From: Rhodospirillales bacterium
Lineage (GTDB): Bacteria; Pseudomonadota; Alphaproteobacteria; Acetobacterales; Acetobacteraceae
NCBI GenBank assembly: GCA_025352665.1
Contig: JANXSM010000064.1
Span: 1 to 64,000 of the forward strand
DNA: 64,000 nt
Direction: 5' to 3'
Shown: positions 23,371 to 61,237 of the stretch, one piece after another
How the letters are laid out: every line of letters starts with the position of its first letter
Position numbering within the stretch: the first letter of the stretch is position 1
The notes under the pieces: model-generated
Database searches by the model: none
The model's input: the letters and a program-made list of their open reading frames with translations, nothing else
Told to the model about the DNA's origin: nothing
Translations under genes and position numbers: made by a program

Positions 23371-24755
23371 GTATCTTGCTTCCCTCGCAGGACATGCGGG
23401 CCGAAATCACCGTGCCGGTCCTGGTGATCGGCGCCGGCGCCTGCGGCCTGGTGGCAGCGCTCTCTGCCCGCGCCGCCGGCCGCGAGGTGATCGTGCTGGA
23501 GCGCGACCACGCGCCGAGCGGCTCCACCTCGCTCTCCTCCGGCTTCATTCCCGCCGCCGCCACAATCTTCCAGTGCGCGATCGGCATCACCGACACGCCC
23601 GCCCAACTCGCCGCCGATGTGTTGGCCAAAAATCACCACCAGGGCGATGCCGCCGAGGCGCTGCTGGTTGCCACCGCGGTCGGCTCGGCACTGGAATTCC
23701 TGAGCGAAACCTACGCCATTCCGTTCGAGGTGCTGCAGGGCTTCCGCTATCCAGGCCACTCGGAGCTGCGGATGCACGCGGTGCCCGAACACACCGGCGC
23801 CGCCTTGCATGGCCGGCTGCTGCAGGCCGCCGCGGCGGCCGACATCGAAATCCTGACCGACGCCCAGGCCATCACCCTATTCGCCGATGCCGCTGGACGC
23901 ATCCACGGCGTGCGCGTGCGCAGACCCGACGGCGAGCAAGAGGACATCGGCTGCGACGCGCTGATCCTGGCCTGCAACGGCTACGGCGGCGCCGCCAAGC
24001 TGGTCGGGTGCTATATCCCCGAGATGGCGGACGCTTTGTATTTCGGCCATACCGGCAACCAAGGTGACGCCCTCGCCTGGGGCGAGGCGCTCGGTGCGGA
24101 TCCCTGCGACCTTAGCGCCTACCAAGGCCACGGCTCGGTGGCCCACCCGCACGGCGTGCTGATCACCTGGGCGGTGCTGATGGAAGGCGGTGTTCAGGTC
24201 AATGCAGACGGCCGTCGCTTCTGGAATGAACACGAGGGTTACTCGGAAGCCGCCGTCGCCGTCTTGGCCCAACCAGGTGGCATTGCGTGGAACATCTACG
24301 ACGAACGCCTGCATCAGTTGGGGCTCACCTTCGAAGACTACCGACAGGCGAACGACATGGGCGCCATCCGCACCGGGGCGGATATTGCGGCCTTGGTCAC
24401 CGCAACCGGCCTGCCCGCAGCGGAATTATCCGCAATGCTTGCCGAAACCGCAGCGCTTGCAGCCGAAGGCGGCACCGATCGTTTCGGCCGAACCTTCGAC
24501 AAACCGCCGCTGGTGCCGCCCTACCGCGCCGTACGGGTGACCGGCGCCCTGTTCCATACCCAGGGCGGCCTGCGGGTCGACGCCGACGCGCGGGTGCTGC
24601 GCCGCGACGGTAGCCGACTGCCCAACCTGTTCGCCGGCGGTGGGGCCGCACGGGGCGTGTCCGGACCTTCGGTCTGGGGTTACCTGTCAGGCAATGGAAT
24701 GCTGACGGCGTTCGCCTATGGCTGGCTCGCGGGCAACGCGGCCGCCCGCCTGTGA
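23367..24755 (+). CDS. FAD-dependent oxidoreductase, flavocytochrome c/fumarate reductase type
   Basis: A 462-residue flavoprotein with the N-terminal FAD-binding Rossmann motif (VLVIGAGACGLVAALSARAAG, ending in an acidic strand IVLERD) and the SGSTSLSSG segment. The substrate domain is of the succinate dehydrogenase/fumarate reductase flavoprotein and 3-ketosteroid dehydrogenase group, and the C-terminus has the FAD-contacting GVSGPSVWGYLSGNG. No heme motifs are present. It would oxidise or reduce a carbon-carbon double bond; the substrate is unknown. The ATG overlaps the transporter stop (ATGA). Its end overlaps the opposing GT9 gene by 69 bases. Confidence 0.83.
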   Translation: MSILLPSQDMRAEITVPVLVIGAGACGLVAALSARAAGREVIVLERDHAPSGSTSLSSGFIPAAATIFQCAIGITDTPAQLAADVLAKNHHQGDAAEALLVATAVGSALEFLSETYAIPFEVLQGFRYPGHSELRMHAVPEHTGAALHGRLLQAAAAADIEILTDAQAITLFADAAGRIHGVRVRRPDGEQEDIGCDALILACNGYGGAAKLVGCYIPEMADALYFGHTGNQGDALAWGEALGADPCDLSAYQGHGSVAHPHGVLITWAVLMEGGVQVNADGRRFWNEHEGYSEAAVAVLAQPGGIAWNIYDERLHQLGLTFEDYRQANDMGAIRTGADIAALVTATGLPAAELSAMLAETAALAAEGGTDRFGRTFDKPPLVPPYRAVRVTGALFHTQGGLRVDADARVLRRDGSRLPNLFAGGGAARGVSGPSVWGYLSGNGMLTAFAYGWLAGNAAARL

Positions 24756-26027
24756 GTCCTCATGCCCCAACAACATCCGGCAGGCGGCGACCACGTCCTC
24801 GGCGCGGATGATGTCAAGACAGGCCACCCCGTGCGGGCATTGGATCGCTTCCATCAGGTGGCATGGCGAACAATCGGTCCGTCCGCGCACCACCACCACA
24901 TGCTCGCCCAACGTGCGCCAGACATCGGCGTTGGGAATACCGGACATCACCGAAACAGTGGGTACTCCAAGAGCTGCCGCCATATGCGTCGGCCCGGTGT
25001 CATAGCCAAGATACAAGGCAGCGCCCTGCATCAGCAGAGGCAGATCCGCCAGCCGTGTGCCAATGGCGCTGCGTACGCGCCCCTCGGGGAATATCTCCAG
25101 GAACCGCTCCGCAGTCGCTCGTTCCGGATCGGTTCCGGTGACCACGAGGTCGAGGTCGTAGGATGTCAGAAGCCACGCCGCGACCGCCTCCAGCCGGTCC
25201 GCGTTCCACAGCCGGATGTCCCCACCCGCCCCGGGGGCCACGATCGCATAAGCGCGGTCGGAGCGCTGTGGCGCAGGCTCCGGCACCAGGCGGTGCGCAG
25301 GATGGGACTGGCGCGAGAACGACGTGGCGAAAACATTGGTCACCGCGCTGGCCAGCAGCATCAGCCGCTGCTCGGCCATCAGCGGTCTTCCCGAACCCTC
25401 GGCGACCGAGATGTGCTCGACATCGGGCAGCGAGATGTCCAGGCCCGCGCCGCCCTTGTCCATCGGCGCGCTGTAGCCGGCGTGGAAGGTCGCATCGACT
25501 CGGTCCAGCAGCAGGCGGGTGTCGGGATCGTGGCGCAGATCGATGGCAAGGTCGTAGCGGCCCAGCGCCAGCGCATCGAACGCCGCAACGAGGGCTGGGC
25601 TAAAGCCGCCCCAGACGGCGCTTGTCCGCTTCATGCCGTCATACGTCACGATCTCGTCGAACAGTCCGATGCGGCTCGCCCAATCCCGGCTCCAGCCACC
25701 GCACGCGAGGGTGATGTGCGCATCGGGGAAATGATCACGCAGGTGCTGCATGGCCTGCATGCTCACCACGAAATCGCCGATATGGTCGAGCTTGAGAATC
25801 AGGATGCGCGGCGCGGAAGGCAGGCGTTTGCCAGGCATTGCCTCACCCGGCAGGATCTCACACACCGCGTTCGGCTCCACCCGCGCAAGCGCGCGCCGTT
25901 TCAGTTTTAGCAGCAGCGGAACATAGATGCCCCGCAGCACACGCTCACGATACGACCCAGGGGGCGCCACCCGCTTGCGCAGGTTGCCAATGACGTGGAT
26001 GAGCTCCTCAGCAGGCGTCGTGGTCAT
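24687..26027 (-). CDS. GT9 (heptosyltransferase-like) glycosyltransferase
   Basis: A 446-residue GT-B fold transferase. The N-terminal domain starts at about residue 74 with RILILKLDHIGDFVVSM, and the C-terminal domain includes YAIVAPGAGGDIRLW, YDTGPTHMAAALGVPTVSV and a Cys-rich end (CSPCHLMEAIQCPHG). GT9 enzymes use ADP-heptose or related donors in LPS core or other surface glycans. About 70 residues precede the fold. The last 23 residues are encoded opposite the flavoprotein gene. It is divergent from the GT2 gene at 26.2 kb and resembles the split GT9 pair at 59.6-61.2 kb. Confidence 0.88.
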   Translation of the reverse strand: MTTTPAEELIHVIGNLRKRVAPPGSYRERVLRGIYVPLLLKLKRRALARVEPNAVCEILPGEAMPGKRLPSAPRILILKLDHIGDFVVSMQAMQHLRDHFPDAHITLACGGWSRDWASRIGLFDEIVTYDGMKRTSAVWGGFSPALVAAFDALALGRYDLAIDLRHDPDTRLLLDRVDATFHAGYSAPMDKGGAGLDISLPDVEHISVAEGSGRPLMAEQRLMLLASAVTNVFATSFSRQSHPAHRLVPEPAPQRSDRAYAIVAPGAGGDIRLWNADRLEAVAAWLLTSYDLDLVVTGTDPERATAERFLEIFPEGRVRSAIGTRLADLPLLMQGAALYLGYDTGPTHMAAALGVPTVSVMSGIPNADVWRTLGEHVVVVRGRTDCSPCHLMEAIQCPHGVACLDIIRAEDVVAACRMLLGHEDSQAGGRVAREPAIGERRQHSIA

Positions 26028-59071: not shown

Positions 59072-59572
59072 ATGAGATCTTTGTTCCGATGGATGGCTCG
59101 ACCGCTATGGCGGCGGGTCAATGGCCTGATCGAGGCACGCGTGCACCGTTTAGAGACGATGTGGGCGACCCGGGTCGATGACATCGCGCGGGGAGCGGCG
59201 ACCGAATTGGCGCAGCTGCGCTGCCTTACAGCCGTCTGGCAGGCGGAGGCGATGCAGGCGATGGCAGTACAACGCGCCCAGTCGGACGCGTTGGACGATG
59301 GGCTTGGGCTGGTGCGGGCCAGACTTGCGGCCCTTCAGGCCGAGCACGGGGCGTACGTATGCGCCCAGGCCGGAATGCAGGAGCAAGGCGAACGGCTGGA
59401 CCAGATGTGCGAACAGCATCGCAACGTCGCAAGCGACGTGGCTGCCCTGTCCACTGCCGCACGGCAATTGGGCGCGGTGGCGCGCGCCGACGTCACCGCC
59501 ATGCTGCACCGCATGGAGCAGCTTCGCTATGAGTTGCGCCATGACCTGGGCGCGGCGGCAGCGCATGGATGA
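59072..59572 (+). CDS. Coiled-coil protein of unknown function
   Basis: A 166-residue, almost entirely helical protein with a basic N-terminus (MRSLFRWMARPLWRRVN) and heptad-rich coiled coil over most of its length (LIEARVHRLETMW, EQGERLDQMCEQH, MLHRMEQLRYELRHDL). It ends by overlapping the next gene by 8 bases, the first half of a split GT9 transferase, so it is probably co-translated and may scaffold it. I do not recognise a family. Confidence 0.65.
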   Translation: MRSLFRWMARPLWRRVNGLIEARVHRLETMWATRVDDIARGAATELAQLRCLTAVWQAEAMQAMAVQRAQSDALDDGLGLVRARLAALQAEHGAYVCAQAGMQEQGERLDQMCEQHRNVASDVAALSTAARQLGAVARADVTAMLHRMEQLRYELRHDLGAAAAHG

Positions 59573-60518
59573 TCTAGCCGGCTGGCCGCCCGCGCCTCGC
59601 GATCCGCCCGGGCACACCCGTATCGAGCGGCGCCGTTCAGTGGCGGTGCACCGCGTTCTGGTGCTGAAGCTGGACCATCTCGGTGATTTCATCCTGGGCC
59701 TGCCGGCGTTGGAGCGGCTGCGCGTCCATTTCCCGCAGGCGCATATCACGTTGGTTTGTGGCAGCTGGAACGTGCCCGCGGCGGCAGGACTGCGGCTGTT
59801 CGACCAGGTGATCGCGTTCGATGCCTTTGCCGCCAACCCAGCCCAGGCGCCGCCGCCGGACCGCGACCGTCTGTTGCCGCAGTTGCGCGATCTGCTCGAC
59901 CAAAGCTACGATCTTGCGATCGACCTGCGGGTGGATGATGATACGCGCCCGTATCTGACCGCAGTTTTGGCCCGGGTTCGCTGCGGCATCGGCACACGTT
60001 CGCGGTTCGATTTCCTCGATGTGTTCTTGCCGATCGATGCCACCAGGGCGCAAACGCCGCCGCCCGCGGTGCTGCTGGCGCATCTGTTCCACTCAGCCAA
60101 CGGCTGTGTCGACCATGGTTACATGAAGCAGTGCACCGAGGCCCCGGCCGGCCCCGCGGTGCTGGTGTTCGGTCCCTACCTGCAGATCCCCACAGGTCGC
60201 TTTTGTTTCAGCCCCTATCTCGAGGTTTTGCAGGGCGGTGTGGCGTTTGAGGTGCTGGTGGACGATCAGCCGATATCGGCGGGTGTCGCGAGCGGCGGCG
60301 CGATCGACTTCGTCAACCTCACGCCGGGTGGCCATTTTCAATTCCGTCTGCTTGCCTCGGCCATGGCGGAGCCAACGACATTCCGTTTCTATGGTGGGTC
60401 TTTGCTGCGTGAACCGGTGAGCGATGTGCTGCACCAGTCGGAATATCTGATGTTGTTGGTGGAGCTTGTGGCGATGCGGGTGCGGTCGAGCGGACTTCTG
60501 GTGGAGATCGGGGCATGA
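59565..60518 (+). CDS. Split GT9 glycosyltransferase, N-terminal half with beta-rich tail
   Basis: A 317-residue protein. Residues about 30-190 are the N-terminal Rossmann domain of a GT9 transferase (VLVLKLDHLGDFILGLPALERL, HITLVCGSWNVPAA, YDLAIDLRVDDDTRPYL), very like the intact GT9 at 24.7 kb. From about 195 the sequence changes to an acyclic, beta-rich segment (LVFGPYLQIPTGRFCFSPYLEVLQ, FRLLASAMAEP, FRFYGGSLL) that looks like a carbohydrate- or lipid-binding sandwich. The C-terminal GT9 domain is in the next gene, whose ATG overlaps this stop (ATGA). Confidence 0.75.
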   Translation: MDDLAGWPPAPRDPPGHTRIERRRSVAVHRVLVLKLDHLGDFILGLPALERLRVHFPQAHITLVCGSWNVPAAAGLRLFDQVIAFDAFAANPAQAPPPDRDRLLPQLRDLLDQSYDLAIDLRVDDDTRPYLTAVLARVRCGIGTRSRFDFLDVFLPIDATRAQTPPPAVLLAHLFHSANGCVDHGYMKQCTEAPAGPAVLVFGPYLQIPTGRFCFSPYLEVLQGGVAFEVLVDDQPISAGVASGGAIDFVNLTPGGHFQFRLLASAMAEPTTFRFYGGSLLREPVSDVLHQSEYLMLLVELVAMRVRSSGLLVEIGA

Positions 60519-61237
60519 AGCGCCGGGTAATCGTCGCGCCGTTTTCCAACAACGATCTTCGCGACTGGCCACGAGGGCATTATCGCAGCCTGATCGCCCT
60601 GTTGCTGCAATCTACGGAGGTGATCGTCGAACTGGTGGGCACGGCCGCGCAACGGTCAGCGGTGGCGGCACTGGCCGAAGGCCTGGTGGCCGAGGATCTG
60701 GGGGCCCGTCGCATCATCAACAGCTGTGGGGCATACGAATGGGCCGAACTGGCGACGAAATGTCGCGATGCCGCCTGCGTTGTTGGCAACAATTCCGGCG
60801 TCGTGCATCTCGCAGGCTCGGTGGGGGCTGCAGTTGTGTGCGTTTTCGGCGGCGCCAATGATCGGGGGGAATGGGGGCCGCTCGGTGCGGGGGTGATCGT
60901 GGTCAGCCGCGAGGTTTTGTGCTCACCCTGCCATCTCGCCCGCGCCGCCGATTGCGCCCATGCGCTCGCCTGCCTGCACGATATCACGCCGGCCGAGGTG
61001 GCCCGCGTGGTGCTAACCGTCCTCGCGCGGCCAGCGGCGGTGCAGCCACAGCCATTCGCCCGGGCGCTCGCGGATCCAGCCTTCGAGGACGGCGTTGATT
61101 TCGGCGGTGAGGAGGGCGATGTCTTTCTGGCGGTCGAAGGTTTCGGGCAGGCGCATCGGTGGCTCGATGATGAGGCGCATCCGGGCAGGGCCGAGGCGCT
61201 GGGTATGGGCGGGCACCAACGGACAGCGAAAGCGTAG
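60515..61237 (+). CDS. Split GT9 glycosyltransferase, C-terminal half
   Basis: A 240-residue protein whose residues 1-165 are the C-terminal domain of a GT9 enzyme: VIVAPFSNNDLRDWPRGHY, GNNSGVVHLAGSVGAAVVCVFGG for nucleotide-sugar binding, and the Cys-rich end CSPCHLARAADCAHALACL as in the intact GT9 at 24.7 kb. Together with the preceding gene it makes one GT-B enzyme in two chains. The last 75 residues are encoded antisense to lpxL and look like noise; the functional protein likely ends near residue 170, though the first stop codon lies only at 61235. Confidence 0.75.
   Translation: MKRRVIVAPFSNNDLRDWPRGHYRSLIALLLQSTEVIVELVGTAAQRSAVAALAEGLVAEDLGARRIINSCGAYEWAELATKCRDAACVVGNNSGVVHLAGSVGAAVVCVFGGANDRGEWGPLGAGVIVVSREVLCSPCHLARAADCAHALACLHDITPAEVARVVLTVLARPAAVQPQPFARALADPAFEDGVDFGGEEGDVFLAVEGFGQAHRWLDDEAHPGRAEALGMGGHQRTAKA

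Follow-up and report, generated by a model that had tools for sequence, protein, structure and literature searches.

An alphaproteobacterial gene pair that probably encodes the two halves of one GT9-type glycosyltransferase

The GT9 heptosyltransferases WaaC and WaaF are single chains, and an intact GT9 protein is likewise encoded as one chain in the DNA studied here, a window of 64,000 nucleotides from contig JANXSM010000064.1 of a Rhodospirillales bacterium (GCA_025352665.1), which belongs to the Acetobacteraceae in the wide sense. Near the end of this window, however, two consecutive genes each resemble one half of such an enzyme, which raises the question of whether they are the remains of a broken gene, two proteins with separate roles, or the subunits of a single transferase. 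Naturally divided GT-B enzymes have been described in the MurG-related line, where Alg14/Alg13 and EpsE/EpsF carry their GT-B halves on separate genes after one gene split and have fused relatives (PMC8993221; PMC10937113); we found no split GT9 in the open-access literature searched. We consider it likely that each of the present genes supplies one half of a heterodimeric GT-B glycosyltransferase of GT9 type, a pair that would extend a known kind of split to another family. An independent split within GT9, for which fused sisters are available, offers a clean system in which to ask why glycosyltransferases split and how the halves find each other, and a sandwich domain of sugar-binding-like fold inside the acceptor half, together with altered donor contacts, adds to its interest.

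The N gene (59565–60518, forward strand; P0001, 317 residues) supplies the N-terminal half of a GT-B transferase of GT9 type and includes a predicted beta-sandwich insert; the C gene (60515–61237, forward strand; P0002, 240 residues) encodes the C-terminal, donor-binding half. The two share an ATGA start/stop overlap (60515–60518, forward strand), and a Shine-Dalgarno-like GGAG (60503–60506, forward strand) lies 8 nt upstream of the C-gene ATG. The original prediction, that two GT-B halves united in a single GT9 chain at 24.7 kb are here divided between ATGA-overlapping genes, is thus confirmed by the open reading frames, the intact GT9 (24687–26027, reverse strand), used for comparison only and outside the system, being one chain of 446 residues. 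This intact protein matches Pfam Glyco_transf_9 (PF01075) at E 3.9e-15 over profile positions 7–239 of 247, and residues 5–140 of P0002 match the same profile at E 2.5e-13 (50.4 bits; cut-off 22) over positions 108–237 only. A Pfam scan of P0001 at E≤1 returned no family, and its NCBIfam heptosyltransferase matches are weak, the best having E 0.0044 (residues 30–121) and all lying far under the cut-off; with its N chain invisible to Pfam, the pair can readily escape annotation. The N gene has a third-position GC of 0.76 and the C gene one of 0.74, values that are coding-like and slightly under those of six other window genes (0.78–0.83), and the invariant residues of both half-families are intact in the pair. 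The neighbouring genes for a lipid A acyltransferase, LpxK and a Kdo transferase are convergent to the pair. The C gene has no stop where the conserved region ends; the C-terminal tail of P0002 (61043–61237, forward strand) continues for about 64 residues and is antisense to the 3' end of the LpxL-type acyltransferase gene, which is convergent with the pair and has its end at 61013 (61013–61237).

Although it lacks a Pfam match, P0001 is best identified as a GT9 N half from profiles and from its predicted structure. The N-family profile finds the GT9 structure 3tov at 1e-5 and WaaC only at 0.046, and the C-half profile finds WaaF at 1.2e-16. A model of P0001 built from 26 aligned rows (mean pLDDT 86.3, pTM 0.65) fits WaaC, WaaF and 3tov at Z 14.0–15.7: predicted residues 29–308 align to WaaC 1–155 (Z 14.6–15.1, 137–144 residues) and residues 23–304 to 3tov (Z 15.7, 148 residues), although as a fold match this is unspecific, with unrelated Rossmann chains of NDH complexes at Z 12.9–14.1 in the same list. 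With respect to the GT9 sequence family, then, both Rossmann halves are related to GT9 structures, and a profile match above a curated cut-off is found for P0002 only.

About 120 residues of beta-rich sequence, absent from the intact GT9, had been predicted to lie between the halves. Such a segment does exist, as a predicted beta-sandwich of 121 residues (P0001 residues 164–284; 60054–60416, forward strand), but its location can be refined: according to the model it sits inside the N-terminal Rossmann domain, ahead of the last helix of the N half (residues 291–307; 60435–60485, forward strand), in and beside which H290, E293, L298, L301 and R305 are invariant in 26 rows. We assign this helix to the N-terminal domain because model residues 29–308 align to WaaC 1–155, and on the same model the gene junction falls within the interdomain linker. 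The insert has the predicted fold of a carbohydrate-binding module (CBM). It resembles CBM86 (6sgf; Z 11.9, 116 residues, 2.4 Å), the accessory Sec protein Gap1 (6oyc; Z 12.0) and CBM35 and CBM6 (about Z 10), and was also compared using Foldseek; across CBM86, CBM35, CBM6 and Gap1/Asp3 it aligns over 104–123 residues at 2.3–3.0 Å, a likeness of fold alone at 6–13% identity and an unspecific one, since Cry and Vip3 toxin sandwiches follow closely (Z about 9.5–10.2). When a fused relative was modelled (8 rows, pLDDT 74.5, pTM 0.61), its top nine matches were all to 3tov, WaaF or WaaC, over 506–525 alignment columns with gaps included and at a TM of only 0.39–0.45 of the query; structures of CBM4 and CBM6 came in at ranks 28 and 48.

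The insert is not confined to this family. Its profile recognises two copies in each of the GT4-type neighbours of Roseiarcus L034 and L037, as well as an ORF in L030 (E 2.9e-12). The GT4-type neighbours of Gluconacetobacter L042 (E 0.02) and Komagataeibacter L031 (E 0.001) give weak matches, and on these grounds the insert looks like a recurring accessory domain. In the GT4-type glycosyltransferases adjoining the Roseiarcus split pairs (L037:6462–8840, L034:4628–7036) the two copies of this GPY-type beta-sandwich stand at the C-terminal side. A different and far longer insertion, of more than 300 residues, separates the halves of a single-chain GT9-like protein at L019:1390–3444.

The search for orthologues sharing the split returned 18 distinct loci besides the window. 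In these 19 alphaproteobacterial loci, which include Sphingomonas, Acetobacteraceae and Roseiarcus, the split falls at one interdomain point, and the N and C genes adjoin in every case. The total of 20 split rows, window and Sphingomonadaceae additions included, comprises L054, whose proteins are those of L028 and which shares a single count with it, being excluded from alignments A3 and A5 and from the concatenated tree; L032, which has only the end of the N gene, is absent from the trees and A3. The C gene starts at an NTGA overlap in 17 rows (16/19 distinct loci), the other junctions being TGATG in L042 and short gaps in L014 and L052. At L052 the halves lie in one frame with a stop codon between them and the C-gene ATG ten bases on, as against overlapping genes elsewhere.

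The family is rare, a point against the heterodimer reading. Among 299 genomes of the window's family, its own included, 13 match P0001 at E≤1e-20, and in the corresponding count of 298 genomes ten reach at least 211 bits while the next best scores 147; the loci fetched from this family comprise three other genera with the split and six loci with one chain containing the insert. Scanning genome contigs with the C-half profile gave 20 named loci, 13 split and seven fused, and a search of the family of Sphingomonas natans (Sphingomonadaceae) matched 7/397 genomes, two of them already known carriers. When the best five or eight candidates per genome were scored, only the window's own genome rose above threshold, either in the class (N profile, 385 genomes) or in the phylum (C profile, 398 genomes). 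P0001 alone found no relative when searched against the genome contigs, and the plasmid search yielded nothing beyond an ordinary Agrobacterium GT9 extended at its N terminus.

In phylogenetic trees the split loci group together as sister to single-chain homologues with the same insert. With the N core and C half concatenated (40 rows), support is 100/98 for the insert family, 100/98 for the fused group and 95/92 for the split group; the C half alone (47 rows) gives 95/94 for split and 98/94 for fused, and the N core alone (47 rows) 98/96 for fused and only 45/54 for split. Six TPR-type GT9 rows of sphingomonads were included in the C-half and N-core trees and excluded from the concatenated one. 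Since the outgroup GT9s are single-chain, one fission is the simplest history and a single origin of the split is most likely. Concatenation places the window in a group with 10 sphingomonad-type rows (98/96), and the N core by itself in a group with 11 (95/93), a duplicate among them; in the C tree the window falls inside the split branch, at a weakly resolved place. A recent split private to the window is thereby ruled out, and the position of the pair among sphingomonad-type sequences, in a genome of the Acetobacteraceae, suggests transfer.

These comparisons bear directly on whether the genes are broken, read through or functionally separate. Continuous-chain relatives with the same insert do exist, which the original prediction had named, together with a sequencing or recent frameshift error at this site, as what would overturn it, and they are what might recommend a reading of the split as an artefact of sequencing or assembly, or as a decaying gene with a recent frameshift; but the error itself fails, because 18 other distinct loci are split at the same point, 15 with an NTGA overlap, and the family-invariant residues and coding-like third-position GC of the window pair speak against decay, so that we rule this reading out as having a negligible chance of being correct. 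The C frame is −1 with respect to the N frame and is open upstream of the overlap, which speaks for programmed −1 frameshifting into a single continuous chain. Against this, an X-XXY-YYZ heptamer occurs near the junction in 0/20 rows (L032 and L037 carry one some 100 nt further upstream), both frames are open together for just 15–27 nt in L031, L036, L042 and L053, and the window has the GGAG 8 nt before the C start; we dropped the frameshift, as very improbable, for want of a slippery heptamer near the junction. The products could also act apart, with the C chain partnering the N halves of other GT9 proteins or the N chain being a glycan-binding protein on its own (also a methyltransferase in relatives), and the N chain does look bifunctional in 17 other split loci, where it carries a methyltransferase-like domain. 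We give this arrangement a small chance only, given the adjacency of N and C genes in 19/19 distinct split loci and the placement of the window with sphingomonad-type split rows in the N-core and concatenated trees and inside the split branch in the C tree.

We located active-site positions by profile alignment to WaaC, using 28 C-half rows with the L054 duplicate included. An H-x-G-D motif (59676–59687, forward strand) places D41 of P0001 at the position of WaaC D13, the proposed catalytic base (PMC5713226), and H38, G40 and D41 are invariant in 26/26 rows; the H266 position is His in 28/28. The position of D261 is occupied by the second Asn of an NNSG motif (60788–60799, forward strand) and is Asn in 28/28 rows, and Gln and Arg replace E222 and K192 in 27/28 each. 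The 20 ordinary GT9 rows have Asp (18) or Asn (two) at 261 and D (eight), E (six) or Q (six) at 222, and nine of them have K at 192. The pair therefore resembles WaaC and WaaF in its two Rossmann halves, recognised by profile and fold, and in the D13 and H266 positions, and differs in having two chains, a beta-sandwich in the N domain and substitutions at D261, E222 and K192. Of the heptosyltransferase features, the catalytic base is present and K192 and E222 are not, and the signature D(T/S)(G/A)xxH, which spans D261 and H266 (PMC3559599), is broken by the Asn. We place the pair in the GT9 sequence family on this evidence, and refrain from calling it a heptosyltransferase, since it lacks the D261 signature and its activity is only inferred.

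The same substitutions feed the main rival, which we nevertheless think unlikely: a complex without sugar transfer, in which a glycan-binding or scaffolding pseudo-transferase, with D261N, E222Q and the insert, would serve as a lectin-like adaptor. The uniformity of the three changes and the CBM-like predicted fold of the insert favour it, as does the cost of mutation in WaaC, where D13A, D261A and K192A bring losses of about 4700-, 2000- and 900-fold in the cited account (PMC5713226). On the other side, the catalytic-base Asp and H266 are kept without exception, ordinary GT9 rows also show Gln222 (6/20) and Asn261 (2/20), and the cited source describes WahF, an experimentally identified heptosyltransferase, as having Ser at 261 and D,D-heptosyltransferases among which Arg at 192 occurs (PMC3559599). 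The retention of D13 and H266, taken with the WahF and Arg192 precedents, makes an active enzyme with an altered donor pocket the better reading. Changes at D261, E222 and K192 imply an altered sugar pocket, and so consistent a change in donor-sugar contacts predicts an unusual donor. The claim of a real two-subunit transferase with an extra substrate-binding domain thus gains partial support from the age and conservation of the split, the CBM-type predicted fold and the kept Asp and His positions; binding by the insert would be a further step.

By analogy, the best reading is that the pair works like Alg13/Alg14 or EpsE/EpsF, but in another family. All have GT-B halves encoded on separate chains; those systems are MurG relatives, however, whereas here Pfam (E≤1) recognises GT9 only in P0002 and nothing in P0001, with no sequence match to MurG/GT28, and the features described for them in the cited accounts include neither an insert nor a methyltransferase domain (PMC8993221; PMC10937113). 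The iron-containing heptosyltransferases of TibC type, in which iron is bound by four Cys (PMC4358343), share a GT9-like fold match, and the C half of the window has four Cys in a C-x-x-C...C...C pattern. Three of these are invariant in 27 rows and the third is missing in L026, L027 and L029; TibC-type enzymes also differ in their insert and in the two chains found here.

In other split loci a methyltransferase-like domain precedes the N half. We built a profile of this preceding region from seven split rows, and it matches each of the 18 split rows, the window aside, in which the region is included (17 distinct, 10 of these outside the model) at E≤1.2e-39, although several end at the locus edge and gene starts are visible in only part of them. 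One fused row, L040, matches (2e-6), and the window does not match. Pfam identifies the domain above cut-off as Methyltransf_11 in L024 and Methyltransf_23 in L031, below cut-off in L042, and not at all at E≤0.1 in L029 and L037. Since the HTRIER linker motif that follows the domain in sphingomonads is kept in the window, the methyltransferase-like domain was probably lost there.

Upstream of the pair, a coupled coiled-coil protein had been predicted. A helical ORF is present (P0003, 59072–59572, forward strand; 166 residues, low in Gly and Pro) and overlaps the N gene by 8 bases, but its heptad moment is equalled or passed by 73/1000 shuffles, a weak signal, and we retain it as a possible coiled coil and not a strong one. 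P0003 matches no Pfam family over its cut-off, and a search of 199 further family genomes returned nothing at E≤0.001. Eight distinct sphingomonad-type split loci carry a short, Gly/Pro-poor helical ORF after the C gene. Its start lies inside the C-gene end in six, by NTGA overlap in L027 (6537–6989), L028 (after 6570), L029 (6546–6929) and L030 (after 6546) and ten bases before the end in L057 and L058; in L053 it is one base past the C gene and in L026 133 bases past. The heptad moments of six of the eight proteins are reached by 1–22 of 300 shuffles, those of L026 and L058 by 187 and 114. Homology of P0003 to these ORFs is unsupported, its profile score ranking 14 among 1000 (P0003 and 999 shuffles). 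In L034, L037, L042 and L031 a GT4 gene stands downstream of the C gene in place of the helical ORF.

Such neighbours allow a more elaborate proposal, which we hold to be rather doubtful, in which the pair belongs to a modular glycan-finishing machine for a surface glycan, the window having a stripped version without the cap. One chain of the other split loci would combine the methyltransferase-like domain, sugar-binding sandwich and GT9 acceptor half, the second chain would be the donor half, and the helical protein would be encoded alongside in the eight sphingomonad-type loci; the glycan would be held, extended and then capped, at a length governed by the separate donor subunit together with a helical spacer. 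The WbdA/WbdD O-antigen system is a precedent for extension, capping and the setting of chain length. On the heterodimer reading, which we favour as likely, the ATGA overlap would couple translation so that both chains are made side by side, and these would assemble with the active site in the inter-chain cleft, rebuilding the GT9 cleft. The N chain would provide the acceptor side and the catalytic Asp, its CBM-like sandwich may hold the growing glycan, and the C chain would bind the nucleotide sugar, in a pocket that differs from the one in classical heptosyltransferases.

A cell-surface glycan, either LPS or another surface polysaccharide, is the likely product, and an ADP-heptose-type donor is plausible, if weakly supported. 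Near the pair in Gluconacetobacter L042 are genes for a GlcNAc-2-epimerase family protein, a ManC-type protein, a GT4, a HAD hydrolase and PfkB with cytidylyltransferase (HldE-like), and near that in Sphingomonas L025 are a PfkB gene (incomplete, at the locus edge), a GlcNAc-2-epimerase family gene and GT2 genes; unlike these glycan-gene settings, L024 has an amidase next downstream. In Sphingomonas L029 (6979–11208) and L030 (8405–12256) tandem GT9 proteins adjoin the split pair, both of those in L029 having TPR repeats by Pfam. The genome of the window contains HldE-like matches on two contigs, at 47% and 38% identity, plus one match, limited to the kinase, at 30%. Its contig C118 (L003 and L059) carries another GT9 gene followed by an ORF that, from its motif, resembles a sugar-nucleotide epimerase, and an HldE-like gene lies within about 5 kb.
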